A DNA stretch of 44,340 nt. It comes from Ectocarpus siliculosus. Its lineage: Eukaryota > Sar > Phaeophyceae > Ectocarpales > Ectocarpaceae. Made by a program: the position numbers and the translations under genes. Numbering within the stretch: the first letter of the stretch is position 1; each line of letters starts with the position of its first letter. The notes below the pieces were generated by a model, which saw nothing but the letters and a program-made list of their open reading frames with translations, was not told the origin of the DNA and did not search any database. Shown here piece after piece: positions 3,301 through 44,207 of this stretch. The stretch is from contig FN649751.1 in NCBI GenBank assembly GCA_000310025.1, positions 1,646,775 through 1,691,114 on the forward strand, in the 5' to 3' direction.

Positions 3301-4671
3301 GCTTCTTCGAACGGCAGCACGCAAGCACCAAAGCAGCGACAAGAGCAAGGCAGGCAGGCGGGCGGGCAACAACACAAGCAGAACCCGAACAGGGAAACGC
3401 CGTACATGCAGCAGCTTCCTGCGCGACCCTGGTTTGAGCAAGCGAGCGTGACAAGCATCAGAGAGAAGAGCTGTATCTACCTCAAGTACAGCCTGCTGTG
3501 GGGCCAAAAGTCAAGGCGGTGCAATTGAAAAACGGGTTTGAGTGGCCACGACGAGAGGCGGGTCAAATTGGGCAAAGAAGACTCCGTTGTCTCCCAACTT
3601 CGGTCAGCCCTCTCAAGACCAGACGCACACTTGTGCTACCAAGATAAGCATGACCAACATGTCTTAACGCGGTGGCGGTACCAAGCAACCCCAAGGCGCG
3701 GGAGCAAAATGCCCGCGCTCTGCTTCCCACAGCACTCTTGACAGAAGACACACACATTCCGCCTGAAGAAACGAGACGCCAAACAACCACACGTCTGTCA
3801 CACGTACATTCCTCACCATTCCGCGCCCAAGCAAGAGACACAGGTCATCAAAGGGTGGAAGCCGTGGCGGCGGCAGCAACGCGGTGCATGTGCTATGCAC
3901 GCGTCAAGAGACACGTGCAACAGCAGTAGCAGCACTGGCAACCAAGAAGGGCGGGCGGGCGCATTCTCTTTTTTTGTCTTGTGAGCCACGGAAACGCGGC
4001 AGGTAATCCCCGTCGAGTTGGCGCCGGCACGGCGGAGGCGCCGACGCTGACTGCATTTCTATGCTGTGATGAAAACGGCCCGAGCGCCCGGCTAGGACTC
4101 CGAGAGGCGAAGCAGGAGGAGCGCACGCCGCCCGAGAGCGACGACACCCCACCTGCCACCACCACTCATCTACGCCGCATGTTGCCAGGGGCGCTCGAGG
4201 GTTGTTCCGGGTTCCGGATGGCACTCTCTGCCCAAGTATCCGGGGAATTTCCCCAGGCTAGACACCTCCTCCTCCCAGGGCTGGAGGGGTTGCAGCCTCT
4301 GGGGTGCAGGAGGAGGCCGCCCGATAGCAGTCCGTGCTGCGTTCCCGTGACTGAACAAGGGAGGGCCGAGCGAGGGGCGAGGGCGGCAATCCGAGGGGAT
4401 CAACAGATGGCTATGTAAATGTTGACGGGTACAAGCTGGTGGGGAAAAACGCGCTATCTGCGTTGCCTCAGCCGCCGTACCGACATACACCCACCGACTC
4501 CCTGCTCGCTGCCCTATGCTCTGAGCACTTGGTGGTTTGTTGCCCAGTAGGCTCGTCTTTCTGCCTACTTGTGTGTGCCTCGGGCGAGTTTGTTTCCAAC
4601 CGAAAATACCCAGTGTTTTTCGTGTGAAGGGCTCGATCGTGAAGTGAAGGACGAGGGACGACGATCATATC
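339..4671. other. Intergenic region, no recognisable gene
   Basis: I see no family-recognisable coding exon on either strand; the open frames are short, overlap in several frames and lack shared splice structure. The contents are one copy of a dispersed repeat (2462-2545), a short CAG run near 3200-3220, and a GC-rich stretch about 3940-4400 before WDR82 that probably holds its promoter or 5' UTR. The stretch 1130-1700 has an unusually A/C-rich plus strand and may be a decayed element, but I could not name it. Confidence 0.5.
2462..2545 (+). repeat. Dispersed repeat, copy 1 (pair at 28296)
   Basis: The segment from GTCAGTTGG to GTGAAGACGGCAACAA aligns along its length with 28296-28380. Shared words include GTCAGTTGGA, CAGTAC, CGGACAT, GATACTGAGCG/GGTACTGAGCG, GGAACGGT and TTTTTA(A/T)TGTGAAGAC. 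A shorter relative, TTTAATGTGAAGACAACAACAA, lies at about 19999-20020. The element type is unknown. Confidence 0.6.
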
Positions 4672-14255: not shown

Positions 14256-17200
14256 TCAATGGAATAACGTGTTTCCTCGCGCCAGGAACAGAAACGTCAC
14301 GAGCGCGCTCACGCAAATAAACGCGACGACCCCCAGAGCGACCGTCCAGGCCACGGCTTCCGTTGGCCCACCCATCGCCTCCAAAATTTTCCCCGTCCAC
14401 GACACCCCCACGACCCCGGCTAGGGTGCCGGCACCGTTCGCGATTGCCATCACGACCCCGGCATGTCGCGGTGCGATGTCCATGTGATTGACAGCCCAAC
14501 CCCCGCGTGACAAACCAAGCGCCGACAATGCCATGGTGGTGTACAAGACACCATCCCTCCAGTGGGTCGCCCGAGGCATGAGCAGGAGCGACAGGGGGGC
14601 CAGGGAAAAGCCCAGGGTATTGACGAACTTGCGGGAGAATACGATGGACCTGCCGAGGGAGACGTGCGCCCACGCGCCCAAGGACCCCCCTGCGTTCGAC
14701 GCTAGGAACATCATCACGTACGGCATCACCTGTCGACGTTTCGTGAGAGCGCAAGTTGCAGAGGAACAGCATTGAGAAAGGAAGGAGAGTATGAAGGAAG
14801 CAAGTGCGCGATCGTGTTGCTACCAAGTATCGCCACGGGCGTACAAGCAGGGACCGCGGGGACAGGCCGAGATATGCCTTTCGTCATTACTCCAATGACA
14901 TGGTACGCGGAACAGAAACACAGGCCACCATAGCCTGCGCGTTGCTTTGACGAGCTCGCACATGACCAGGAGAGTCTAAACAAAATGGCCAACGGTGTAA
15001 CGCAAAAATTCCACATTTTTCGCGAGGATCGACCATGCAGCTGCTATAGTACAGGCTGGCTTCATGTCCGTCTACCACGACCTTGAGCAAGCGGCACGGC
15101 GACAAGATATGATCCACGGTACCATGAACGTCCACCGGGCGACAGCGATCAAGCGACGTGGACTGAATTGTTCGCCGAAAAAAGAAAACGACAAGCTGAT
15201 GGCAGTATAAACACAATAAACATTGCAAGAAGCAGCAAGAGCGAAATTCATATCTACGCCGTTTAGGCCCACACAGGCCTCCCAAGCCTAGACATGGTGC
15301 GGATACAAGCCGTTTTTTGGAGGCAATCTTTTTGCCAAAACTGAAAAATAGATACGGGAAGAAACAGAAGTCATTCTAACGCTTGAGAACGCTTACCGTG
15401 TACCAATTGCTCATATCCGACAGCCCCACGCCGATGTGGTCCTGAAAATAGGTGGGCAGCCAGTTCATCAGGACGTACGTGGCGTAGTGAAAGGCGAAGT
15501 TGTTCGTCACGATGGCCCACACCGCCGAGCTCCGGATCAAGATCCCCCACGGAACGCCCGTGCCGCCGTCCCCCTTGCCGCAGCTCCTCCCGTGTTTGGA
15601 ATCTCTGCCTCCCCCCCCCCCCGCACCGCCGATGGCACCGCTGCTACTGCTGTGGCTGCCGTGGGAGTGCAGGAGCGGCATCGGGTCCTCCTTCTTGTTA
15701 AACGGCGGCACCGCCTCCATGCTCCCTTCCTCGACCCGGGCCGGTGAGTGCGACCCGCTGCTGCTGCTGCCGCCGCCGCCGCTTTCCGGCGGCTGATCAG
15801 ACCCCACCCTCCACCACGTTGTCAGCCACACCAGGGCCATGAGGCCGGAAACTTGGAACTGCATGCCGGGCCCGAATTCCTCCACGATGTAGGGCACGAA
15901 CAGCATCGCCAGCGCAGAGCCAAGGTACCTGTCGTTCGCCCGGCCATTGGCCGTGTCGCCGTGAAACAAGACAAATCAAAATAGGAGAGTGAATGGAAAG
16001 GGGAGCGATAGAGTCAGGTTTCGTTGGATAGCTGTTGATACATGTATTCTTTTGCCGAGAGTTATGCTGCGGTCAACCAACCATGGAGTTTGTCGCGTAC
16101 ATCAAGTTTCTCTCGTACTTCTGTATGTCGAATGCCATAGTTTGTATGCAGGTGGAAGATTCGGGTTTCGGTTTCCTTTGGTTGGAGCAGGCAGTTATTC
16201 CTGCAAAGAAAAGGCCGATGGATTAGGGTCCCATTCCCGTCGAGGCACGGTGTACGCTTTTCAGAAAACCAGGGTACAATTAAGTGCACGGACGTAGTCT
16301 TGGAAGGGTATTCCCCGTGCTTCTTACGGCAAGGCAGGGCGAAAGCGGACGTCGTCGACCAATCAGCTCAATATAATCGGCTCTAACGTTCGAAGACGGG
16401 AGTGTGTACCCGGCTCAGTCGCTTTTTCGCCAGGGTACCATGGTTGTGTCGTTTTATGCCCAACTTTTCACACGTCGGATAGATCATGATCTAGATGATC
16501 TGTGGTCTATAGATCAAGCGTTGGAAGTATCATAGATGATCTGTGGAGTATAGATGAAGAGCACGCAGGTATCATCGATGATCTATGGATTATAGATCAA
16601 GAGCGGCAGATACGTTCGGATCAATCTGTGGCTATGGGGCAAGAGTCGGAAATATCACCGATGATCGATGGATTATAGATCATGTACAGCAGACAATGTA
16701 CAGATCTATCTGTATAGGTCAAGAATGGTAAATGTCACAGATGATCTATGGATTATAGATCAAGAGCGTCAGATATGCTCGAATCAATCTGTGTCTATAG
16801 ACCAAGAGTCGGAAATATCATAGATGATCTGCGGATTATAGATCAAGAGCGACAAACACGTTCGGGTCTACATATATATCCGAATCCATGGATCAACACT
16901 TGAAAATGTCACAGATAATCTGTGGTCCTGTGGCCTACAGATGAAGAGCCAAATATGTGTTGTTGTTGTTGTTGCTGTCTTCGCATATAAAGTGTTCCGT
17001 TCTCTCTACCCAGTACCTTCCTCTGTCCGCACTATGTAGTCAAACACTCACGACAACACTTGACGCAGTCGATTCCCGTGGTCATGGGCCGACTTACCCA
17101 AAAAAGGTACAACGTGCGAAAACAATATGGATCCGAAGGGTCCAAAAGTCAATACAATTGTAGAAGTTCACGACACAAAGTCTTAAACTATCAAAAAAGT

Positions 17201-20200
17201 CGGGTCGTCCAAGGGGTAGGGCTCCCATCACCGGTCGGAGGGCTGGGGCTCCCATCATCGTCCACAGGGATAACCTCTTGGTCTGCAGCCGAGGCGGCTG
17301 CCGCCACTCATGCCTGCCATCCTAGGCGCGCGTGGCCTCTCGCGTGTGTGGGAGCTGTTGTGGTGTGTGGAAGGTGTGGAAGAGTTCTCTCGAGAAGCTG
17401 ACATGGCACGTGCCACACGGCACGAAATACCACCCGCATGATCTGTGGTCTACGGATGTAGAGCGGCAGGGATCACCGATGATCTGTGGTCTACAGATCA
17501 AGAGCGGCAGGGATCACCTATGATCTGTGGTCTACAGATAGAGAGTCGGGAATATCACCGATGATCTATGGATTATAGATCAAGAGCGGCAGATATGTTC
17601 GGATCTATCTGCGTCTATAGATCAAGAATCGGAAATATCACCGATGATATATGATATATGGACTATAGATCATGAGCGGCGGACAATCTACAGATCTATC
17701 TGTGTCTATAGATCAAGAAACGCAAGTATCGCAGATGATCTATGGATTATAGATCAAGAGCGGCAGATATGTTCGGATCAATCTGTGTCTATAGATCAAG
17801 AATCAAAAACATGTACAGATCGATCTGTATAGATTTTGGTGATCTGCGACCGAAATGATCTATGGCGATCTATAGCGATCTGATCTGTCCTATGTATAAA
17901 CTTTTTTGCCACGCGCCTGACCCCCACTCTTTTCTGGCTCAATTTTGAGAGTTGACACGCGGAACACAGAGTTGGCACGAACCGCACGGCCGAGAAAACT
18001 CGTCAACAGTAATCCCAGTATCCAGCTGGTTTGTTTCCCACTCCTGCCAAGACTTCCATTCCAACACATCCCCATCGACTGCTCTGAGGTATTGTCTCGA
18101 GCGGGTAATCCTTCTGTGATAGTGGGTACACGAAGAATGTTCGAACGAAGACTATCGAGCGTATGCCACCATGGCCATGTTCATCAAATCAATTACCCCG
18201 TATTCATCCCGAAACGGCACAAAAACGACGAAGTTACAGTAGTTAAACGTGGCGTCGCTATTGTTCACATTCGAACGACGACCGGATACTTGTCTGAGCG
18301 GCAATCTGTGCGGTTATTTCTTTCGGGGGCACCGACGACAGCGCTGCTCTTAGGTGTGCTCCCTTTCTTTATCGAGGTGCAACCCCGTCGCAAAGCGTGA
18401 AGCTCTCCATCTCCGTAAAATTACTGGAAATTATCCTGGGCTCTTATCTGTGGATACAAGATGGTTCGCTGTTCGCTGTGTTGGGAAGTAAGAACAAGTA
18501 GGTCGTTTCACGAAGTTTTCGGACCTCGCCCTCGCGTAGGTAGACTCCAAACCGGTGCCCCGGTACAGCACTACAGCAAAACCTGGCGGTATTATTGGCA
18601 CGAAATGCCAATTACTATTTCGGGTCCGCAGGCAACCCGCAGGCTCACCCAGTACCTCTTCATCAGAAGCGAAGCATTCACTACCACCTCGGGTATCGGG
18701 TACACCTCGCTGCCTCGGCAAGGCTTTTGCTTAGGCATGGCCCATAGCGCGCGGGGGGGGGTCTTTCTAGCATGGCTAGACTCACCCTCAAGGGACCGAT
18801 ACCTTCTTGCTACGGCGCACCCGCCGCGAGGTGTGCGTAGTGGTAGAGTTGGGTCGGCACTGGTGCGTCAGGTACAAAAATGCAGATGCGCGGGCCTCAT
18901 GGCCGTCGGTGTAGACAGCAATGTCCATCTCAGTTTTGTGCGCGGAGGCAGACGCCATCAGAAACGTGGACGGACACTATGTGCACGGCCCTCGGTTTGC
19001 TAGAGGGAGCTGTACTGTCTCAGTAACCTGGCTTCGCCATCAAAGAGGAGGAGGGAATATGTGGTGACAAGCTGAGTGGGCTGGTTGACCCTTCGGCGCG
19101 AGAATTTTCAGACCAAGAACCCTAAGTGCAACGAGGGAGAAAGCGAGGAACCGACTGGGAAGGACAGCAACGAGAGCGTGTACGGACGGAGCGGGTCGAG
19201 TTTGGTCGTGCTAGGACTGGCCGCAGCGACACCGGAGCAGCGGCATCGGAGCAGCGGCACCGGAGCACACGGACGACATCGAACCGTGACGCACGGACGA
19301 ACACTCGAATGGGTAGTCTTTCTGTGTGTGTAATTATTTTTTCTTAATTTTGTGTTGTCAAATATTTTCCGTTTTTTTTCCTGAACATCGGTGTTGGGTG
19401 TGTGTAATGACGTCACTGGTTTTGTAGAGAGACGCGGCAGAGATGGCGCGGATACCCCGGGTGCCGTTATTGTGTACCTGCATTGTGGAAGACCCCTCCC
19501 TTCAATGTGGAACGATTCCTAGTCAGTGTCGATTATTATCACTGCTGTGTCCAACACAGATAGATGATCCGGGGGTAGATTCGGTGATTGTCAAATGCAA
19601 TGATGGCTTTGGTTGGGTGTTCTCTTCACTTTATGTCCACGGACGCATTCTGACAGCACTTCAGACAGCAGTTGCGCGCCCCGAACTTGTGCCATGCCTA
19701 CCATGGTGTTATTTTACTGGCAGCACTCCAGACAGCTGTACGCTGTAGTCGCAAACATTAATTTGGTAAAGTGTGGGACAGGGGGGATGATGCTGCTGTA
19801 GTCGAATGTAGTGTGTGGACGGGTAGTTCAGTTTTGGGCACGCAAACGTGCCGCAGGGATGTATAGGTGTACCTCTTCGGGCTTGTGTACCCTTTTCTTG
19901 CTAGTTTGCGTGTTCTTTAGATCTTCTGGTGGCTCTAGCATTTTTGTGACCACGGACCGCTTCTTTGCTAGATTTTGGGATTAGCAACTGACACGAGTTT
20001 AATGTGAAGACAACAACAACAACAACAACAACACAAGAAGTGACTCTTGAGACGAAGCCCTATCGTCATGTAAGATTAGTAAAGCCAGAACGCCTATGGA
20101 TGAAAACACAAAGTAGGCCCCTAACCTTCTCTTGCAAGACTCGCGAAACTTTAAGGGGGACGCCCCCCTTTCCCATGCGATGCGCTCTGCAGCCGCAACG

Positions 20201-24200: not shown

Positions 24201-26900
24201 CCCTGCCTGCTGCTTTCCGCAGGCCCCCCAGCTGGGCATGGAGTTCATGGGCTTCCTCCGCGCCGCCGTACAAAAGCACGCCTTCGGCACCGTGCAAACC
24301 AAGGCCTACATCCACGGCGCGCGGTTGCTAAGAACAAGGCTCGCCGCGAAGCAAAGCGAGGACTGTCTGTACCTCAACGTGCGCACGGTAAGCCCGTCGG
24401 TGGTCGGGGACCTCGGTGCGCCGCCGGCCCCCCGCCGAGGCGATAGAGACGCTGGCGATTCCTGTCCTCCGAGCAGCGGGCCTGAGGAAACGCCGCCCAC
24501 CCCTACTACCCAAGGCACCGGCGTGGGGGCGCAAAGCACGGCTGCGGATGGTGGCGGTGGTGCTGCTGCGGGTGCTGCGGCGAGACTACCGGTGCTTGTG
24601 TACATTCACGGCGGCGACTACCACGACGGCGCGGGCGCGAGCAGACCCTTTTACTTGTCCAACGCGCTGCCCATCAAGGGCGACGTGGTGCTGGTGACGT
24701 TCAACTACCGGCTCGGTTTGCTGGGGCACTTCTGCCACCCGGACCTGTCGAAGGAGGCGGAGGCGGCGGGACGGCCGGCCGTGTCCGGCAACTACAGCAT
24801 CCTTGACCAGGCGAGCAAACTTTCTAGTCCTACTAAAAAGATGGCTGGATTCCCAGTTATGCAAGAATTTCCTTCTACCTGGGTCGTTTTCATCGGCAGC
24901 GCGAATGTGCTAACTATGTGGCAAGAATTCTGCTAGGGCGTTTCAGTTTGCAGCGTGAATGAATGTGCTTCGGTTGAGTGTAGAGTGCGCACCGAAGCTC
25001 AAGTGTTGTTGATATAATTGGGCCTGACGCTACACCCGTGACCTATTCTGAGCGTCGACGAATTACTTGTCCCAGAAAAGATCGTCTTTCTTTTAGCCAG
25101 CTTGAGTGTGTAACCCCGACGTTGTTGCTCTTTCCTGTAAACGTGCTGTACGCCAGATCGTTGTAAAGTACGAGTAGCTTTCCCCGACCGTGAAGGTCGT
25201 GGTTTTCACATCCTGCTGTAGGCAGACACTTTGTGATCTTTTATTCGTGTGTGTATGCAAATATTCGAAAATTGTTGACGAGGGATTGAGAAATGCTGAA
25301 CCCTTGCGCGAAATTTGAAGGGGGGCACCGCCGAAGAGACAGACCTTCCGTGTATCTCCTGACTCCGTACGTTAGGTAGATGGCCAGGGCCTTTCCTATG
25401 CGGCTATCACGCATAAACCCAAACGCTCATCGAGAACTATATGGTTGTGCAGGATCACTACGGGGAGAAGAAACGCGAACGCACCACAGCGGGCAGGTTT
25501 GTCCCGTGTGCCCTGCTTTCTCTTGCCACCGCCTTTTCCGCCAGCATGGTGTTTGACCGGGCATGAAACGCCCCCAACCCTTGATGCCCTGCCCTCATTT
25601 TTCCCTTCAGATTGCCGTGTTGCGGTGGGTGCAGCGGAACATCGCCTCCTTCGGCGGCGACCCGGAGAACGTGACGATAATGGGCTCCAGCGCCGGCGGG
25701 GAGAGCGTGCTGTACATGATGACGTCATCGCTGGCCCGGGGGCTGTTCCACAAGGCGATCTGCCAGTCGCCGGCCTGCACGCCGAACTCGCTGATGCACC
25801 TCCGGGAGCCGTTCGCGTGCTTCCGCCCTTCCGAGGACAACGGCGTGGACTTCGCGTTCAGGCTGGTGGGCGCGGACCGGGGCCAGGTGTCCCGCCTGCG
25901 GAACGCCCCGCTGCGTCAGATCATGAACGCCTACTACCAGGACGGCACCAAGCGGCCCGAGCCGAGGCAGCTCTTCTACCCCGTGGTCGACGGCCACGTG
26001 ATCCCCAAGCCGCCGGTCGAATCGTTCCTGCTCGGGGAGCAGGCGCCCGTGCCGCTGCTCATCGGCAACAACGCGGACGAGGGGAGCCTCTGCTACCCGG
26101 TCACGTACTCGCGGACGCGCGTCCGGGACGCGCTGTACCCGAGCCCGGTGCGGGAGGCCGGCAGGGAGGCGTACGGGGACGAGGGCGCGGCGGCGCTCGC
26201 GGACCTGTACGACCCCGCGTGGCGGGAGACCGGGGAGGGGGCGGAGGACGGGTCGCCGTCCGACTGCGACTTCTTCACCGACCGGGTGTTCGGGCAGAAG
26301 GTGCACTGGCTCGCGTCCCACCACCACCGGCTCCTGCGGCGGCCGACCTTCGTCTACGTGTTCGCGGCGGCCCCGCCGCGGGAGGGGCAGACCGTGGGCG
26401 CGTTCCACGGCGCGGAGGTTCCCTACGCGTTCGGGTCGCGGCCGTGGTTCATCGGGGGTCCCGAGGACAAGCGGCTCGCGTCGGCCATGCCCGACTACTG
26501 GACGGCGTTCGCCCGGGGGGGCGACCCGAACGGCACCCTCCGCCCGCGGGTGTTCTGGCCGTCGTTCGACTCGGAGCCCGGGAAGGGGCGGCTGATCGTG
26601 CTCGGCCACGCGATCGAGGCGAAGAAGATGGACCGCCTGGAGCGGTACGCCATCCTGCACACGCACGTGCGGCGGGTCCTCGCCGACCTCGAGAGCCTGC
26701 GGAAGTGGCAGGCGAAGCGCGAGCAGCACGAGAGGCGGGCGACCGAGCTGCGGGCGGCCGCCAGGGCGAGAGCGATCAAGAACGACCAACAGCAGGAGGA
26801 GGAGCGGGAGGAGGACGGCAGCGCCGAACGCGGGGAGGGGTTAGCGGCAGAGGCGCGGGTGCCGTTCCGTCAACTGCAGAAGCAGCGATCAAGCAGCTGA
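21286..26900 (+). CDS. Type-B carboxylesterase (alpha/beta hydrolase)
   Basis: Four exons: 21286-21398, 21729-21834, 24223-24810 and 25611-26900; the product is 698 aa. The order of family motifs is complete: [15 protein letters not shown] at the exon 1/2 junction, SEDCLYLNV in exon 3, the oxyanion motif [21 protein letters not shown], and GNYSILDQ joined to [11 protein letters not shown]. The nucleophile elbow is GSSAG with Ser296, where the family usually has GESAG. The acid is Glu426 in NNADEGS and the base is His535 in FHGAEVPY, so the triad is intact. The family hydrolyses carboxylic esters; the substrate is unknown. No signal peptide is visible, so it is probably cytosolic. Oddities are a roughly 60-residue Gly/Ala/Pro/Thr-rich insert between LNVRT and [10 protein letters not shown], a GC donor on intron 3, and a C-terminal charged segment rich in Arg, Glu and Gln that may form a coiled coil. 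Confidence 0.93.
22844..22871 (+). repeat. Exact 28-bp dispersed repeat, copy 2
   Basis: Identical over 28 bases to 19304-19331, in the same orientation and 3540 bp away. See that entry. Confidence 0.7.
23618..23837 (-). mobile_element. tRNA-derived SINE, copy B
   Basis: Read on the minus strand, the head GGTCGCCCCGGTGGTCTAG contains an A box TGGTCTAGTTGG and a perfect B box GGTTCGAATCC. The body and tail match copy A: AGGGAAGAGAGTGCT, CTTCTCGC, then CCGCAGGAGGGG. Outer bases TCGCC and GGCGA can pair like an acceptor stem, but the T-stem has mismatches, so this is a SINE head and not a functional tRNA gene. It sits antisense in esterase intron 2. Confidence 0.78.
25268..25335 (+). mobile_element. 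SINE tail fragment, copy D (tentative)
   Basis: TTGACGAGGGATTGAGAAAT followed by GCTGAACCCTTGCGCG resembles the tail of SINE copy C (GTCGACGAGGGAAGGGAT, then GCTGAACCCTTCTCGCG). It is short and diverged and lies in esterase intron 3. Confidence 0.4.
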
Positions 26901-29547: not shown

Positions 29548-32395
29548 TCAGGGGTCACCGAAGGACGTGACGGCTCGTAAGGCGGCCTCCCCCGCTGCGC
29601 GCTCGATCCGTGAGATCCTGTCGATTGCGATAGCATCGTCTGCGATCCGGTTGGCAAGCTGGGTGCCAGAGGAAGAACAGAAGGTTCGGGGGGGGAGGGG
29701 TGAGCACGTGTGAAGTACAGAGCGAAAGGAGAAATAACGTCCCTTTCGCAGGCCGTGTTTTTTTCTCCAAGTCTTAAGAAAAGCTCCGGAACCAAGACAA
29801 GCTTTGTTGCCGAAGCCTCGTGCTGGAAAAAACACCAACAACCACGACACACGAGTGTGCCCATTTCCTCCACTCCAAAAAACACTGGGCGATACTTGTC
29901 GTCGCCGAACTACTCTCCCGCAACCTCTTCGCCGCTCTCACCACTATGGTTGCGGCCGACGCCTGCACCTTGCTCTTTCGACAGAGGCGAGCGAGGTGCA
30001 GCAGCTGAAACGTCTCCATCTCGAAGCTCCCCGCCGAGGGGTGTCGCTCTAGCAAACTCGACAAGATATCGCTGTTGCGGTCTTCGAAGCTTGGGTCGAG
30101 ACGGCCTGAGGCGACAAACGAACGATGGTTGCGAGAGAAGGGTGTCGGATGGAAAGAAATCGAAAGGTTGCTCAGAGCTCGTCCTCCGGCCTGCCTGTGT
30201 CACACCGGTCTGTGTGTGGGACCCATCGCGTGATCCTCGGGTAGGGTTGCGAAGTTACGCGTTACCTATGTTTGCAACAATTTTTTTTGTGACTACCTCG
30301 CCATCGAAAGAGCATCGTCCACGGGACCGACTCGTTTCGACGCCTCCCACACCTTGGCTGCTGTAGAAGCTGTCCGCCGAGGCATTCAAGCATCCCACCA
30401 CGGCCGTCCCACCACCACCGTCGCTGCCGCCCGCCTTGCCATCCAGCGAGCGCTTGAGTTCCTTCAGCAACGCTTCGGACAGCTCTTCGTCTGCGGGGGC
30501 CACCCCGTGGAACAGGTACGGCTCGCCTTGGGTTTCTCCTCTCGCGGCCGTCCCTTCCCAAGCGTCCGGATTTTGGCGAATCATCACGGAGCCCTCGCTC
30601 GCAACCGCCACGCTGCCGACGGGCAGGTCGGGGCGCAATCCGGCGCAAGACCCGAGGCGGACGATGCGGAGTGGTCCCGTCGTCACCGCCCTCACCTCCC
30701 GCACGAAGAAGTCCATGTTTGGGTAGCCCATGTTTATCAGCACGATCGACACGGGCACTCCGTTGTAGGTCCCCGTGTGGGTAACGAAGCCCCGCTTGCT
30801 TCGCCTGGTGGTTGTTGTTGTTGTGCTACTACTGCCGTTTTTGGTATTGTTGTCGTGGTCGTTGATGTTGTCGTTGTTGTCATCCTTCGGGGTGCCGGCG
30901 GCGGTAGTGGTGGTGCCGTCCAAGAGTGACGCAAGGATCTCGCCGCGCCCCTCGCTTCCGACCGTGACGATGTTGTTGGCCACTGCGCATGGATGCAGAT
31001 ATGTACGTAAATAGAGGCAGGCGTATAAATGGTCATGGGCATTCAAAAACGGGGAGAAGAGTATACTGGAACCAACACACTTTCCGCGGGCACGGTGCAC
31101 TTTTCTCGCTCCTGTCGCCGCGTAAGGCTTGCCGAGCCGTGTGGTCACGTGTTGTAAATTGCACCCAGTGCCTTTTATCATACACGTCTCGTCACACCTG
31201 TATTCTTAGCGCACCAGGCGAGCAAGAAAAATCAAATCAGCAAGTTTGGTCTTCTTACAGGAAAAATAAATACACTTCTGTACCTAAGACTACCACGCGG
31301 ACGGTGTACATGTATTTGTATGTGTATTGTAGCAGTAGTGCCAATCGGGAACAGAAACAATGAATCAGGACCTTGCTGGATTATACAGAAAAAATCTGTT
31401 CAGAAAAAAAAGCTCAAATGTTTACGAAAAATAAGAAACAAGGGCTAAGAAACTCAGCTCACTCTCGGCCACGACATAAGAAACGTCGCAGTAAGAAACA
31501 TGATCGGGCGATACCCTGAGACACAAGAAACAACGAATAGCTGAGGAAGCGTGCTGTCCAATAAGAAACCTCCCACTGCTGCTGCTGCCAGCTCCCACCA
31601 CTACCTATCTAGGCTAGCTCATCATGTAATTGTTTTTTGTAGTGAGTGATTATTTTCGCGTCGCCCCTCGGGCCCCCGCGCCGCGGGCTGCGCTACCCAC
31701 TGCTTGTTGTATTGCTGTACTGCCACAATCACGGGAGTCAGGAAGTTCAGGAGGAGGCGACAACCCCGATCAATCAATGTTCGTCACCACCGAGCTGTCG
31801 ATTGAAAATGTTACATGAAAAGGCTTGGTGTGTTGTTGGTTTCTTCGCCAGAAATAAGAAAAAAATAAGAGCAGCAGAATGATGCGACAGCCCAAAGGAA
31901 TTAAGAAATACTGGCCGACTTCGGCTGGTCCTTAGGGCGAAAATATGAAATTGAGGCTTGACCCGATTTTGACGTTTCTTATCTCCGGGCCCGTTCTGTA
32001 TTATTCCTCGTTCTCTCGCCATCAATCTGCCTGAGGGTGCATACCAAGACAACCACAAGGAAGGGTGGCAGCAGATATCATACCACGTTTCTCGCGGCTC
32101 TGTTGGCCGCTCTCTCCCTGCCTCGACTACTATGTAGCAATGGTGAAACAACGTCGTCACGGAACATACAGCTGCAGTATACAGGTACTTTCTGACGCTA
32201 TGAATCTGTCTCTCAGACTCTTTTCTATGATATGGTTTCGTTGCGTCATATTAAGAAAAAAAAAAAAAAACTTAGATGGTCAATTATTTAGACACACGCA
32301 CCTTCGCCGGACCGCAACTCGAGATGGAGCACTCTTCCGTCAGCCGTGAGCGGAACGGCATTGGCATGGAGAAGATAAAGATCAGTGGCGCTCAT
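29548..32395 (-). CDS. Uridine phosphorylase family protein (PNP/UDP superfamily)
   Basis: Four exons on the minus strand: 32395-32302, 30982-30353, 30105-29942 and 29658-29548; together they encode 332 aa. Junctions restore family motifs: RSGE|VANNIVTVGS, SSQ|GRLDPSFEDRN and AATIV|LANRIADDA. Other marks are INMGYPNMDFFVREVRAV, VRLGSCAGLRPDLPVGSVAV, NASADSFYSSQG and SFEMETFQLLHLAR; the Glu-Met-Glu at 270-272 is the ribose-binding signature. Members catalyse reversible phosphorolysis of uridine to uracil and ribose-1-phosphate in pyrimidine salvage, usually in the cytosol. The first exon (ADGRVLHLELRSGE) aligns with the N-terminal segment of the microbial-eukaryote subfamily, which supports the start. 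An insert rich in Thr, Asn, Asp and Ser (about 30795-30915) interrupts the region after LLDG and is encoded by trinucleotide-repeat-like DNA. Substrate preference within the superfamily is not certain. Confidence 0.9.
30983..32301 (-). other. Uridine phosphorylase intron 1
   Basis: This 1.3-kb intron has the octamer TAAGAAAC five times between 31432 and 31569 and a CAAGAAAC at 31524. It also has an A-run near 32252-32271. I see no exon in it. Confidence 0.6.
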
Positions 32396-33992: not shown

Positions 33993-36900
33993 ACAGACAG
34001 ACACACAGGTTGGTCGTCTCCATGCAATAGACGCACATTTTTCCACACACCCTGTAAATTACCATGCCATCACCTCGGCCGCGCACCAACCAAGCCTTCA
34101 CACGAGACTCACTGATCGCGACCCACCCTTCCAGGAGTATACAATCCCGATTCGATGTACCGTGTGAGGATTCTGGCGAGGGAGGGCGAAGCGGTGTGTC
34201 ACGATCGAGACGTGGGCGCCGTGGTAAAGGAGAGGCTTTTGACCGCTCGCGACGCCCGACGAGCGATCGGCTTGCCGAACGCTAAGACCGACACCTACAG
34301 GTGGGTGGAAGACGGTGCGGCAGCAGAGTGCAACGTGCCTCGTAGCGCTGGTTTTGGAGTGCTGCTGGAGTGCAGGGGGTTTCGGGGGGGGTACCTGGGG
34401 CTCCATGGTGGTTGTGTTTGTTCGTCGTACCGCGCTTGGGTGAAGGCACACCGTGTCTGGGATGTTCCGGGTCACAAACATTAGTAGGGTGCAATGTCGT
34501 CATCATGCGCATTTGTTGCTGTCGCATACGGTTCTATTTAGTGCAATAGGTGGCATCATGGATTTCCTCATGATGTATGAGTACAGTGTCTGGATTACGC
34601 TTGTTGTAGGGTTAGTTCCAACGCAACTGTAGTTGACGAGCACCCCGTAAACGTGATTTACATCGGTCATCGCTCTGCAAACTCAACGCCTTCCACTCTC
34701 CCGCTGCAAACGGCCGGGTACTTGCAACCGCCCCTCCCCTCCCTTCGCTCAGGCTGGTCAACGGGGAGGGCGATCGCCTGAGCGGTTTGGTAGTCGACGT
34801 GTTCGCCGGCGTGGTAGGGGTTTCCTCGTCGGCGGTGTGGGTGGAGGCGTTTCGACCGGAGATCGAGGGCGCCCTTGGAGAAGTCTTTGGCGCCGACGCG
34901 ACCGAGATCATCTGGCGGCGGAGCGACGGACGCCTGCAGCAGGACGGGTGGAAGGGAAACAACCAAAGCTCGCCGGGGGCAGCGGTGGCAGAAACGACGG
35001 GTGCCGACGGCAAGGCGGCACGAGCCGCGGGCAGCTCAGAGGGGGTGGGGGTAGCGGGGGAGAAGAGGCTCAGGAGTGATGCGCCGTCCACTGTGGTGCG
35101 CGAGCACGGGCTGGAGTTTGAGGTTCGCCCCCAGTTCGGGCAGAAGACAGGTGAAAAGAACACAGCAAACGTGGGCACGGTGCTTGCTCAAGGGTTGATT
35201 GAGGGATTCACAGTCCGGCATTCAGGTTATGTGCTACATTGTAACTGACCCTCGTACCCAATGCCGTTGGAAATTTAAATTTCTCTCGTTGCGGGTGTGT
35301 TCGCTGCTCGCACCCCGCCTAGTGAAGTCTAGCCGTCCTCTCGGTAAAACCGCATGCCGATCACTGGCTCTTCTGTGGTTATGGATGCAGTTGCTGTTGT
35401 TGTTGTTTTTGGTCTTGTTTTGTTGCTTTTGTTGCTTTTGTTGCTTTGTCGACATTCGGAGCAGGATTCTACTGCGATCAGAGGGAGAGCAGACAGGCCG
35501 TTCGGGAACTCGGCGAAGGCAAGAACGTGCTCGACATGTAAGTCCAACCCCCCACCCGTCTTTCGGCTACCTTTGTATGTTGGTTGATGGGTCATCCTGC
35601 CCGACAACTTTGTCGTCAGGTGAAGAGGTTCCGGCAGAAGCGGTTGTTGTATACCGTACCGTCAAGCAAAGCTTGGTTTGTTATTTGAAGTCTACCAGCA
35701 ATTCGTTCACATGCGTACAGACGACATGCATACTACGTCTGTTTTTTCCCTCGGCAGTTTTCCCGCGTTCGGATGTTTCGCTGCTACAGCAGTACAAGAC
35801 GCATGCCTCCTTACATCGACTACGCTACAAGATTTCTCAAAGCTGTTCCTCACACGGTTTATTTCGTTTGCGATTGGTCGCTACTCAACCATTTGTCACA
35901 AGGTTCTGCTACAGCGGAGGGTTTGCGCTGAACGCCGCCGCTGGCGGAGCGTTGCGAGTCGTGGGCGTCGACTCGTCCCAGCCGGCGCTGGAAGAAGCCC
36001 AGGTTAACGCCGCTCGCAACGGACTCGAAGGACTGACGGAGTTTGTCAAGGACGACGCTCTCAACTTCATGAAGGCAAGCTGTTGCCGCCGTGCACCCGC
36101 CATCATCGCGCCCCCTCTTGCCCCAACACCAGACGGAGGGTAGACGTGCTTTGAGCGCCCTGCCTGTGTCGGGCTTGGTCACCTCATCATCTCTGAAACT
36201 CCAGACGATAGTGCCAGATTCCGACTCGGCATCGTTTTCATGTCTCCTGACGCGGCATAGATGCCATCGCACAAATCCGCCTACTTGGGGAAGGAACATT
36301 TTTTGCCTCTGCTTCGCGCCTTTGAGACCACCGACTGCTGTGCCAGGAGAGCCGACCGTTCTGTAGCCGTTTAGCCGTCGAGCAGGCATAGAGCAAAAAC
36401 GTCTGGGCTTTCGGGCTGCGCGTGTCCTCCGAAAGGCCCCCGAGTTAATAGAGTCGACACGGCCACGCAAGTGCCGCCGTTGCCCCTTTGCCCAAACAGA
36501 AGCCTGACTCGTACGTGTGAAGCCCTCCCTGACCTCATGTAAACCTCTCTGTGTCCGATGGCGGCGATGCTGTTGTTTCCGCCGAACGCGCGCGTGCGTG
36601 CGTGGGTGGGTGACAGGCCGCGAAAACCAACGGGGACGAGTATGACTTGGTAATCGTGGACCCTCCTAAGCTCGCGCCGAACAAGAAGGCGCTGCCGCGC
36701 GCGACCTCCCGCTACAAACGGATCAACGCGGCCGCCCTTGAGCTGGTCGCGCCAGGCGGGATCCTGCTGACATTTACGGTGAGGAGGTGCAATAGCGAGG
36801 GTGGGGGATGGGTGCGGGGGGGAAGACGTTCATGCCGCGGTGCGACAGCTACGGTAGGCTTCGATCGTGTGGCCGGTGTTTACGCCAGCTGGTGCGTCGA

Positions 36901-39250: not shown

Positions 39251-42200
39251 TCACCCTTCCCCCGACAGCTGCCGGAAGAACTTTCGAGTGATGCCCACGG
39301 GCTTCTTCTCGTCCAGCTCTCCCGCCCGCTTGCGCGCCACGGGGCTGTAGGCCGGCTCCTTCGCTGACGGCATCACGGGACTGAAGACTGGCGGCGCGAG
39401 GCCCGACCCGAGCGCCCGGAGCTTGTCCGCCGTCAGCCGCTGCCCCACCGGGATGTGGTCCTCAGTGGAGACGCTGTGGCGGATGCGCCTCTGGTTTGCC
39501 ATGTCTCTCTCGCGCGCTGCTACTGCCCCCGGGACGCCCCTTCCCGGCGGAGCTTGAGCTTCATCGTCCTCGTCCATGCCCTCCTTGGGCAAGGTCGAGC
39601 GCGTGATGGCCCGAGAAGAGAGGGCCGACATTCGGTCGAGGCTCGACGTGCGGGTCAGGCTCCTCGTGGATTCGTTCTTCAGGAGTGTTCTTCCCGACCC
39701 TTCGAACCCGGGGGCCGTCTCCTCGAGACCGCGGCTCTGCTTGCGACCGCCGCTGCTGCCGCTCTCGTTCTTGGACCACGGCTTGCCCACTTCGGCTGAG
39801 CGCCTGCCTAATGTTTCGCCCGAAGACCGGCTGCCGCTGCCGCTGCCGCTGTCACCGCTGCCGCCGGCCCCGCGGGAGGGTCTGTACACCCTCGAGGCGG
39901 TTTCCCCGCTCCCGTTCCCTCTCCCGTCCCGCCTGTGCGAGAGGAGGCGGGGGAGGGGGCTTTTGCCCGAGTGCCCGCCGCCATCACCGCTAGCCTTGCT
40001 GCCGTCGTTATTCTTCCCGTGCGAGCTCAGGTCCCTGATCCGCGGGAGGCCGTCCCTCGACCCCCCGGGCTTGGACGAAGAAGACGTCGGCGAGCGGGAG
40101 TGGCCGGAGCCGGAGACGGATGGGTTTCCGGGGCTCCGTTTCGCTGAAGATCCCGATCGCCCCGAGCTGGTCCCCGACGCTCCGGCGGGAGAGCTCGAGC
40201 GGACTTGGGTGGGTGTCCTGTTGTTCCTGCCACCCCCGGCGGCCGCCGTGGTCACGACCACCGCCGTCCCGGCGACCGGAGCCTGGCGGTGCGTGGCAGA
40301 GGCGCGCCGGGCGCGGCTCGTCGGGCTAGTAGCCGACGGTGCCGGTTTCGCCTCGACCTCGACCGCGGATGCGCGGGCGTCCGCGTACGGGTTGCCCGTC
40401 ATCACCCTCCCCGGGACGTTCTTCGAGGGGGCCACCGCCACCACCGGCACGCCGTCGCCGTACGGGTTGCCGCCGTTGTTGACCGCCCTGGCCTTGACCA
40501 CCTTCAGTCCTGGCATGGGACCGTTCCCCGCCGCCGCCACCACCGCCGTCGCCGTCGGCTTCTTGCGGTTGGCCCGCCCGCCGTGCTGCGTCTCCACGTG
40601 CTTCACCAGCTGCACCACGTCGGGCAGGCGCAGCCCGCACTCCGGGCACGCCTCATGCGGCGGCGAAGCCGGCGCCGTCGCCGACGCCAACTGCCCAGGC
40701 ACCATCGCCCCCGCCCCCGTAAGCAGCGCCCCCCGCGCGCTCTGCTCGCTGCGCATGCTCCTCATGCTGCGGCCGCCGATGGACCCCGGCCCCGGCCGCC
40801 TCCAAGACTCCTGAAACCTCCCGGAACCGGACACGTAGAGCGACCCCGGGTTGCGGACGGGGCCCGGGTACGGCTGCGGGCGGGCCGGCGGGTTCGGCCG
40901 GAGCTTGCGCCCGGGGGCACCGCCGCCGCCGCCGCCCCTGTTGGCCGTGATCTCCCGGCGGTACCTGTTGACCTTGGACCTGTGCCTGCGGCTCTTGTTG
41001 CAGCTGCGGCACGCGCACGCCGCGGCGCAGCAGGCGAAGACGCCCAGGGACAGTGCCGCGGCGAACTTCCAAGTCAGGAGGGTGTCCGCAGCCTGGTCGA
41101 CGAGGTCGGCCCAGTCGCTAGGGTCCTGGGCGGTCGGCAGGGCGTTGGTCTTGATGAACTCGCCGTTCGCGATGACCGCGAAGTTTTGTGTGTCGTACTC
41201 GCTGAGCTCGTTGCAACTCACCTGTCGAGTCGTGCGTGTTTGTTGAGCAATTAATCGGGGCGCATCATTGAACGTGGAACGTGTGCGTATGTATTCGGGC
41301 GGAGCCAGTCGCGTCACGTAGTCAACCAACTCCACAGAGACATGGTAAAGGGTTCTACACACGGTTCTTCTAAGACGTGGACTTCCGTAAGCCGAACCAA
41401 CGAGAGGAGCACATACCACCTGCTGCATTGTAGCTTTATTGACAGCCAGCTCCCGAACTTAACTGTGAATAATCAATAGCGTACCACAGGAAAAAAACAA
41501 CACGAAAAAAACAAGTCGATACAGCAGTACCGACGAAACAAGGCCCAACTCCAACCAGAACTGACCGACTTCGAACAAAAAACGTGTTTCCGTTGCATCT
41601 CTAACTCCACCCACTCAAAAACCGCACCCACACCTGACCACAAATGACAAAAAAACAAGAAAAAAGTTTCCGCATTGTCCCGAAATCGCGACCTACCCGT
41701 ATGATGTAATTCTCGCCCTGGGTGGTGTCGGTGATGGTGATCTTCTCCACGTTGTTGACCGTGTCCGCCTCTTCCAAGCCGTTGGGGTAGTACTCTGTAC
41801 CTGTCGACTCCGCGATGACGACCAGGTCAAGGTCGTGGATAAGAGCTTCCGTCGACCCCACCGAGGCGGGGGGGTCCGTCCACACCAGCGTGATGCGCAG
41901 GTCCTGTTCGGGTTGCCAAAGTCGAAAGATGGAAAAAAGAGGGTGGAGGCAGTCAGAAGACGTACTTCTCCGTTACACAGAGTGGTGGCTCGAGGTGTGG
42001 GCAGTCAGAAGACTTATCTGTTACATAGCACAGAACGGTGGGTCGACAAAAATCGTTCTCAGCACACAGGCTGAGGGGGCAGAGCCTTTAGCTGATCCGG
42101 CCATGACTACCGCGACCTGAACTTGCACGACTGCTGCTGTCGCGCGGTCTGGCGGCTACAAAAATATTTCACCATGACCGCATCGGATCAAAGCCACACC

Positions 42201-44207
42201 AAACCAAACCAACCTTATCGGTATCCGCGTCCTCGTACAGCGACACGTCGTAGTCGATGGTCTCCCCCTCGCGGATCTCCACCCAGTCCTCGAAAAAGAT
42301 GCCCACCGTAGAGTTGATGTTGAGGGCGTTGATCATCGTCACACGGCCGAACCCCTGGGGGGCACGCGCAGAGCAGAAACGGATATTTGCGAATGTCAGC
42401 ACCACAACATCAAAGAGGGAACGTGGCGAGAACGATGTGTGATCGTAAATTAACCGTCCTTCGCTGATGCGAACCGCACGCAGGCAACAAACCTTCCACG
42501 TCCACGATAAGTCGCAAGCGCGCACCTGCTTTTCGTAGCTCTCCCTCACCTCACGCTATGCCAACCTGAAATCAATCTCACCTGGTGGGTATCCGGAGGG
42601 GTCGTGAGCGTCACGTCGAGCGTGCCGGAGTCAGGGTTTACCCCAGCGAAAGACATGCCCGTGGCCGAGTTGATCAGGACAGCCTTCAGCAACGCCCCCG
42701 ACGGGTCGAAACCCAGGCTCTCGTTCTTGCTGCCGGTGTTGTACCAGCCCTCCCGGAAGTACTGTCGGGCCATAGCGCCGTTGCCCGCCACGATGGGGGT
42801 GGACATGCTCGTCCCCTGCGGATAATAAGGTTTGCGTTCAAGGGTGAAGGAGGCGGAAAGAGACTCGGGACGTCGAGAATGGAAGGGACGGTACACAGCA
42901 ACACACACACACCACAAGTTCGTCCGAAGCAGACAGGGCAGCAACACGCAAACACACATGAACACACAAACACACACTATAATACCAAGACTGACGTCGT
43001 TTCATTGGTCAGCCGGTCAGCGCCGTCGATGCCAATGATCTTTTCAACCGCACTAAGACTGACGTCTTTTCATTGGTCCGTCTTATTCATTGGTCAGCAG
43101 GTTATGTAGTGCGGTCGATGCCAATAATCACAAACACACGCACATACACACACATCTACGGGAAAAAGGGCATGCCCGCTACCACCCCCGCCAGCAGCAC
43201 CGACCGCCCCGCACCCCAACACCCTGCGGGAAAAAGCCTCCCTTTCTCCCTCACCGTCTGGCTCCCGAACTCGCACGTCTCCCCCGTGGTGTCCGCCGCC
43301 GCCGACCAGGTAGGGTCCCCCGGCGCCACGACGTCGGGCTTTATCCTTCCGTCGATCGTCGGTCCCTTGGAGGAGAAGTACGACACGGTGTCCATGTCCT
43401 TGCCGGTAACCCCGCCGGACTCGGACGAGCCCACCGCCACGACGTTCTTGCCCTGGGCCGGGGAGAGCACGGTACCCTCGTCATCATCGAGGACGCTGCA
43501 GTTGTCGATCAGGTCGTCCGTCGACGTGTCGCCGCAGTTGCCCGCGGCGAACACCACGAGCATGTTCTGGGACAACAACGACGAAAAACAACGCGGCGGA
43601 ATGTGAGACAAGAGGACGACTGCTGTATCACTTGGTTTGTGTTAATTCTGTTCTGTGCTCTTTGTGAACTAACCGACGTGTTTCGTGCGCTTTTCGCGCA
43701 TGTGTTTCTGCATGCATGCATGCGCGTGACTATATCGAATCGATTGCAGACACTATTGCAGCGGCTGTGTAGTCAAACACTGCCGTGCCGAAAACAAAAA
43801 TCAACGCGCATCGAAACTACTACCGGTTTGATTTTTGCCTTGGAACGCGAGGTGCACACAGAGAATCCCACCTCCCAACTGTTCTTGTTTCAACCGATAC
43901 ACTCAGAAAAAATAGATGTGTACAGGTACACGACAGGAAAATAGCCTCCGCACATGACGAAGGACAAGTGCCCATCACCTTATGTCATTCCTGCCCTTCG
44001 GCCTGTATCTTAGTCGGACATGCTTGAAGGTTTAGAGACTGGCGGCCGTGTTGTAAGAACTTTCCGTGTCCCTGGATACAAAAAAAAAATTGAGACGGTG
44101 TCCGTCTCCACTCTGCAGCACCACCCCTCACCTGGTGGGTGTAGACAAACTCGTCCACCTCGTTGCTGAGGGCAGTATACTCCGTGCTCACGGTGTCCCA
44201 GGAGTTG
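39251..44207 (-). CDS. kP43-type subtilase with TM segment and C2H2 zinc-finger tail (5' part missing)
   Basis: Six exons lie in the window: 44207-44132, 43566-43255, 42815-42582, 42354-42214, 41903-41697 and 41221-39251 (979 codons plus stop). The N-terminus, with the catalytic Asp and His, lies beyond the right edge. Visible S8 marks are NSWDTVSTEY and DEFVYTHQ, then VVFAAGNCGD with the oxyanion Asn, KNVVAVGSSESGG, the GRIKPDVVAPG block, and GTSMSTPIVAG with the nucleophile Ser at about 42807-42809. A beta-rich domain follows (GFGRVTMINAL, DLRITLVWTDPP, LIHDLDLVV), as in kP43 proteases. Exon 41221-39251 then has a membrane helix (41009-41065), a Cys- and Arg/Lys-rich juxtamembrane stretch, a C2H2 finger CPEC..HVETQH with spacing C-x2-C-x12-H-x4-H (40583-40648), and about 440 Ser/Gly/Arg-rich residues. 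The protease should face outward or luminally, with the tail in the cytosol. Confidence 0.88.
40583..40648 (-). other. C2H2 zinc finger within the subtilase tail
   Basis: The segment encodes CPECGLRLPDVVQLVKH followed by VETQH. Spacing is C-x2-C, twelve residues, H-x4-H, within the C2H2 consensus. It is in the same uninterrupted open frame as the membrane helix, 120 codons after it, and downstream of a basic stretch that could act as a nuclear localisation signal if the tail were released. Confidence 0.75.
42986..43131. repeat. Tandem duplication with TGACGTC and CCAAT/ATTGG boxes
   Basis: AAGACTGACGTCGTTTCATTGG at 42987 recurs as AAGACTGACGTCTTTTCATTGG at 43056, and both copies end in GTCGATGCCAAT(G/A)ATC. 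The second copy has an internal extra CGTCTTATTCATTGGTC. It lies in the subtilase intron between exons 43566-43255 and 42815-42582, next to a CA-rich stretch. Confidence 0.75.

Follow-up and report, generated by a model that had tools for sequence, protein, structure and literature searches.

The window analysed here is a stretch of 44,340 nucleotides of the brown alga Ectocarpus siliculosus (contig FN649751.1, positions 1,646,775 to 1,691,114; C26:1646775-1691114 in the genome of 189 Mb and 492 contigs that we searched). A gene on its minus strand encodes the end of a KP-43-class S8 subtilase that continues, in one open frame, into a hydrophobic helix, a Cys/Arg-rich membrane edge, a C2H2 zinc-finger pattern and a long basic tail. 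We read its product, at a probability of roughly 45%, as a type I membrane-anchored KP-43-class subtilase of furin-like layout, the tail of which would carry a module binding a sorting partner. The catalytic domain would face outward, at the cell surface or in the lumen of an endomembrane compartment, one helix would anchor the protease in the membrane, and the tail would lie in the cytosol. The most likely role of its one C2H2 finger there is the docking of a partner protein: ubiquitin, a sorting adaptor or a vesicle GTPase. Protein binding is a better fit than DNA binding for a finger that stands alone in a tail. By analogy the tail may have a sorting role, the docked partner setting the location and the residence time of the protease, a task that the short tail of furin performs through other motifs. 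As described in PMC12649860, furin has a subtilisin-like domain, a P domain, a Cys-rich domain, a helix and a cytosolic tail, and PACS-1 recognises an acidic cluster in that tail and so brings the enzyme back to the trans-Golgi network.

Six minus-strand exons, with GT..AG borders throughout, were spliced and translated into a single open frame of 979 amino acids plus stop, and the order of parts that an earlier note on this DNA had described (protease, helix, Cys/Arg-rich edge, finger, basic tail) was found in that one frame. Exon 1, as visible in the window (44132..44207; acceptor AG, donor GT, frame), carries a NSW... segment; NSWGAV... is also present in a paralogue on contig C59 and NSWG in the KP-43 structure 1wmd. 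Exon 2 (43255..43566), placed by PF00082 and its splice borders, holds FSSKGPTIDGRIKPDVVAPGD and the oxyanion Asn in FAAGN (codon about 43537-43539), and exon 3 (42582..42815), placed by PF00082 and the KP-43 alignment, the catalytic Ser in GTSMSTPIVAG (codon about 42807-42809). The KP-43 C-terminal beta domain begins in exon 4 (42214..42354; 1wmd alignment and paralogues) and goes on in exon 5 (41697..41903; 1wmd alignment). Removal of intron 5/6 (41222..41696; GTAGGT...GACAG) joins the protease to the tail, in frame, and restores the last beta strand of the domain. Exon 6 (39251..41221) encodes 656 amino acids and the stop codon at 39253-39251, and contains in this order the last beta strand, a linker, the membrane helix, the juxtamembrane region, the finger and the disordered tail.

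The window begins inside the protease, and the gene runs on upstream into an adjoining N run of 3,664 bases (window-equivalent 44341-48004 on the same contig), on the window side of which there are homopolymer C/A/G runs. Because this run lies upstream of the window edge, the catalytic Asp, the catalytic His and the gene start are out of view. Two exon-like frames beyond it, at window-equivalent positions of about 48250 and 51163, were considered as a possible N-terminus and not used, as they had no Pfam match; the former gave two weak paralogue matches, one of E 0.12 whose order was unexpected and one of E 0.74, with no further genomic copy at E<=1, and the latter gave one weak paralogue match (E 3.4).

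The protease class named in the earlier note was confirmed. In a Pfam search of the joined protein PF00082 matched residues 6-187 with an E of 1.2e-24, and the nearest solved structures, SubHal (5fax) and KP-43 (1wmd, E 2.8e-27), align with its residues 1-326; this alignment covers the C-terminal beta domain and ends three residues beyond the exon 5/6 junction. The subtilase fold is indicated by the Ser in GTSMSTP and the oxyanion Asn in FAAGN, and the KP-43-type beta domain by the alignment to residue 326, with its last strand supplied by exon 6. Judged by these alignments the protein is a member of the KP-43 class of S8 subtilases, and it is predicted to be catalytically active; its Asp and His would fall in the N run. 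A kexin-type catalytic domain was not recognised, the 21 PDB sequences at E<=0.001 including no furin or kexin and the best matches being KP-43 enzymes; likewise, no ABC transporter part was present among the four Pfam families matching at E<=10.

The assignment of exon 6 to the protease gene rests on its first residues, VSCNELSEYDTQNFAVIANGEF (41153..41221, minus strand), which we identified as the last strand of the KP-43 beta domain by paralogue alignment and, by eye, from bacterial relatives. They align with VVVSAKGLLTDEQSYSLVVTGAI (paralogue C32), VLVYSNSLVTDSQSYSLVVNGAI (C22b) and VGVRARTLTESDVQAYGVAAAGGG (C16b), so that the exon 6 strand TQNFAVIANG corresponds to QSYSLVVNG or QAYGVAAAG in paralogues. 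The last strand is continuous with the preceding domain in one open frame in six of the nine paralogous loci (C22b, C32, C492, C16b, C4 and C16a), while in C22a and C22c it stands in a separate following frame, from which an intron nearby can be supposed there too; in C59 it was not found. Four of the five bacterial relatives that were read past the match continue in frame to QGYALAAAG or QPYSLVVVD, and the fifth stops at a contig end. Since the protease domain would be without its last strand unless exon 6 were joined, the junction 41697/41221, and with it a single gene spanning it as the earlier note had proposed, is well supported by these comparisons.

In exon 6 the content of guanine plus cytosine (GC) per codon position is 0.63/0.63/0.87, against 0.55/0.45/0.89 in exons 1-5, and in all six of the 300-base blocks printed from it the third-position value is at least 0.80, which supports exon 6 being coding. 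Frames were also scored by the codon usage of exons 1-5 (323 codons): out of six, the exon 6 frame came first overall and in each of three sub-segments, although its lead in the middle sub-segment was narrow (-0.091 vs -0.146 for a reverse frame); all these scores are negative relative to base composition, and the ranking alone is meaningful. The length of the frame is weaker coding evidence, an open stretch of at least 655 amino acids having appeared in 5 of 2,000 first-order Markov sequences. In the genome the protein of exon 6 matched itself alone at E<=0.01, and a search with its DNA returned 12 matches, one being itself and the other 11 falling in query bases 1347-1394, where the sequence is simple and rich in GGC/AGC.

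The membrane helix (LLTWKFAAALSLGVFACCAAACAC, 41009..41080) was placed by hydropathy: the segment FAAALSLGVFACCAAACAC has a mean Kyte-Doolittle value of 2.14 over 19 residues, the top value in the first ~574 residues, which was the range tested. Acidic residues precede this segment and RSCNKSRRHRSKVNRYRR follows it. The Cys/Arg-rich membrane edge (CCAAACACRSCNKSRRHRSKVNRYRR, 40955..41032) overlaps the end of the helix and may act as a positive-inside signal, with S-acylation of its cysteines possible. According to the positive-inside rule a basic flank marks the cytosolic side of a membrane helix, and the tail is placed in the cytosol because the stretch after the helix is strongly basic. This probable topology follows from the hydropathy peak and the basic flank, no signal peptide having been seen with confidence.

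The finger, CPECGLRLPDVVQLVKHVETQH (40583..40648), reads C-x2-C-x12-H-x4-H and is the sole match in the protein to a loose C2H2/C2HC pattern; it fits the classical spacing C-x2-C-x12-H-x3-5-H and has the core hydrophobic residues. Apart from its first residue, which is the last cysteine of the membrane edge, the 583-residue tail contains no cysteines but the two of the finger. When the 583-residue tail was shuffled, the strict pattern arose once in 100,000 sequences and the loose one 17 times in 100,000; the finger pattern is unlikely to be there by chance (about 1e-5), and by its ligands the finger would bind zinc. The domain search that the earlier note had suggested recovered the S8 part but not the C2H2 part at the Pfam cut-off: finger models scored at most 11 bits in the whole protein and up to 19.5 bits for a piece of 36 amino acids, and the isolated finger piece stayed under the curated cut-offs (PF00096, 16.7 vs 25.2 bits; PF13894, 18.7 vs 27). 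AlphaFold2, run on 51 residues as a single sequence, returned a strand-strand-helix (beta-beta-alpha) model with a predicted local distance difference test score (pLDDT) of about 85 over model residues 11-30 and a mean of 67.3; the remaining four models reached 55-61. Of the 260 Foldseek matches of this model at E<=10, not one reached E<=0.001, and the best 50 of them were mostly C2H2 fingers, an R2 retrotransposon protein being first. The neighbours by PDB sequence comparison, at similar scores, included DNA-binding fingers, R2 fingers and optineurin/NEMO fingers. The Gly/Ser/Arg/Ala/Pro-rich basic tail that follows the finger as far as the stop codon (39251..40582) is taken as disordered from its composition. 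Descent of the tail from a retrotransposon, despite the R2 likeness of the finger, was unsupported, a single copy of the tail having been found.

In the same genome PF00082 was found at eight places, the window included. A protein search gave 25 exon matches; sorted by their location, these make up the window gene and nine paralogous loci, such counts being lower bounds. The C-terminal ends of the paralogues were read as open frames without splicing; eight of the nine could be read, and no end could be made out in C59, which was followed 8 kb further. The ends vary across the family. Five of the loci, of which three are on C22, one is on C4 and one at C16:5.33 Mb, have a hydrophobic segment 0-9 residues before the stop that resembles a glycosylphosphatidylinositol (GPI) signal, a reading made by hydropathy and position only. 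These GPI-like paralogues are L007, L008, L010, L013 and L014; the three on C22 are consecutive, and the one on C16 has a long stalk with Pro/Thr/Ser and Asp/His repeats. C32 and C492 have a stop directly after the protease domain, unless spliced on. The paralogue at C16:6.54 Mb (L012:4993-6537, about 6.545 Mb) combines, in one open frame of 514 amino acids, a protease end, a stalk that is acidic and rich in Gly, a helix with a hydropathy of 2.07, and a probably cytosolic tail bearing a UBA-like domain. The UBA_7 model matches it with an E of 1.4e-5 (25.4 bits) in a trimmed 86-residue piece and 2.3e-4 (21.4 bits) in the whole frame, and the UBA-like part matches three solved chains of 'ubiquitin-specific protease 14' and USP5 at E 0.002-0.004; third-position GC in this region is 0.91, and no second copy of this paralogue was found in the genome. 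A tree of the paralogues groups C26, C59 and C16b (support 0.946), C26 plus C59 having 0.569; the pieces behind it are query-centred and range from 88 to 349 residues, and it is given little weight. As the relatives carry other kinds of end, the tail may decide the destination of the enzyme, and from the UBA-like tail at C16:6.54 Mb it seems that the family gained protein-binding modules on the cytosolic side more than once.

Several of these results weigh against a sorting module in the tail. The earlier note had counted homologues consistently lacking helix and finger as contrary to its architecture: all eight paralogue ends that were read lack the finger, which appears to be private to the window gene within the genome, while a helix with a long tail is present in one of them. 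The mixed neighbours of the finger single out no protein- or ubiquitin-binding role, and the UBA_7 match of the C16:6.54 Mb paralogue lies under the Pfam curated cut-off of 27 bits. The motif GHGTH counts both ways: within the stretches cut it was found in C59 and at all three C22 loci, which is in favour of the reading, and not in the other five of the nine.

It is conceivable, though rather unlikely, that the tail has no more than an anchoring or spacing role as a disordered segment in the cytosol, and that its finger is small and structural, or a relic, with no specific partner. The absence of the finger from the paralogue ends would suit this, as would the low-complexity Gly/Ser/Arg character of the tail, the sub-threshold Pfam scores and the moderate confidence of the finger model; against it, the ligand set of the finger is complete, its hydrophobic core positions are occupied, the tail past the membrane edge has no other cysteines, and the beta-beta-alpha model was obtained from a single sequence. 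The earlier note had suggested a surface protease that can signal inward, perhaps by releasing its tail; in such a scheme the helix would be cut and the freed finger and basic stretches would act in the nucleus. We consider this quite improbable: the C2H2 fold has nucleic-acid-binding neighbours, the tail has basic clusters and the helix is rich in small residues, but a single finger rarely suffices for specific DNA binding, as is generally known. No positive evidence for such signalling emerged from the analysis, and the precedent of furin is a tail serving trafficking (PMC12649860).

That the product is a pseudoprotease, or comes from a gene whose N-terminal half was lost, and serves as a scaffold only seems very improbable; the Asp, the His and the prodomain are hidden by the N run, and the exon-like frames past it bring neither a Pfam match nor a convincing paralogue match, yet in the visible part the Ser and oxyanion Asn motifs are intact and the frame is unbroken. 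Most improbable of all is a wrong gene model, with 41221-39251 part of another gene or an alternative 3' end, for although the frame of exon 6, taken from stop to stop, reaches upstream as far as 41458 and has one in-frame ATG within the proposed intron, making a separate start formally possible, and the acceptor lacks a strong pyrimidine tract, the exon opens, in the correct frame, with the last strand that the protease domain would otherwise lack.

Starting again from the membrane-anchored subtilase with a sorting tail, a bolder extension, clearly unlikely on present comparisons, would be a family of surface KP-43 enzymes that swap their ends, in which two tails read ubiquitin: the UBA-like one of the C16 paralogue and the optineurin/NEMO-like finger of the window gene. 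Brown algae evolved multicellularity separately from animals and plants. If true, ubiquitin-reading tails would tie a protease on the outside to the ubiquitin sorting machinery within, and a family with one catalytic unit and exchanged ends (GPI-like, free, helix plus UBA-like, helix plus finger) would show the re-addressing of an extracellular enzyme within one genome. The two cytosolic modules, finger and UBA-like, are open to testing. UBZ fingers are a recognised ubiquitin-binding group (PMC7226360).

Outside this genome, 29 stretches of bacterial and archaeal genomes matched the search pattern and 7 were related to the protease part, at 31-35% identity, none of them matching beyond query residue 324. 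Five of these seven were read past the match (up to 220 residues printed), and by eye, with no programmed finger search, no helix-finger tail was seen. Among viral contigs one stretch matched the pattern and none was a relative. In the open-licence literature searched (titles and abstract openings), no such architecture was described among the matches listed.

The window contains other features at a distance from this gene. A RNase MRP RNA gene lies on the minus strand at 3992-4345, a full-length match to Rfam RF00030 (79.2 bits vs a gathering score of 50). By eye we recognised a carboxylesterase-like open frame by its motif (25557-26900, plus strand), a nucleoside phosphorylase-like one (30255-31205, minus strand) and a stretch like S-adenosylmethionine-dependent methyltransferases of the ribosomal RNA type in another (35199-36143, plus strand). 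Two tandem-repeat clusters occupy 16492-17828, with units near 41-42 or 83 bases and a common GATCTGTGG..ATAGATCAAGAG-like core.

Compared with known systems, the finger is close in pattern to the ubiquitin-binding fingers of optineurin and NEMO, which are among its better single-finger PDB matches (E 0.06-0.14) and presumably share with it the arrangement CPxC...LPD...L..HV; optineurin, at rank 40 among the best 50 of the 260 Foldseek matches, is 42% identical over 26 columns. However, the ligands of those fingers are CCHC, whereas the window finger has C, C, H and H, and they score no better for it than DNA-binding or R2 fingers. The Tag proteases of Dictyostelium, with which the earlier note compared the protein, are also eukaryotic subtilases with added parts, including an ABC transporter part, for which the window protein has no Pfam match. 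The apicomplexan SUB2 combines a subtilase with a single C-terminal helix and a tail in the cytosol, as is predicted for the window protein; to our knowledge the tail of SUB2 is short and without a finger, and we know of no finger in the tail of furin. Furin and Kex2 (S8B) have the type I layout of subtilase, beta domain, one helix and cytosolic tail that is predicted for the window protein, the furin tail being residues 739-794 (PMC12649860), and differ from that protein in that its catalytic part is nearest to KP-43. The enzymes of the KP-43 class (1wmd, 5fax) are like it in their catalytic and C-terminal beta domains, which align over 326 residues, whereas 1wmd, a chain of 434 residues that we take to be a free enzyme, has no membrane helix or cytosolic tail, both of which are predicted in the window protein.

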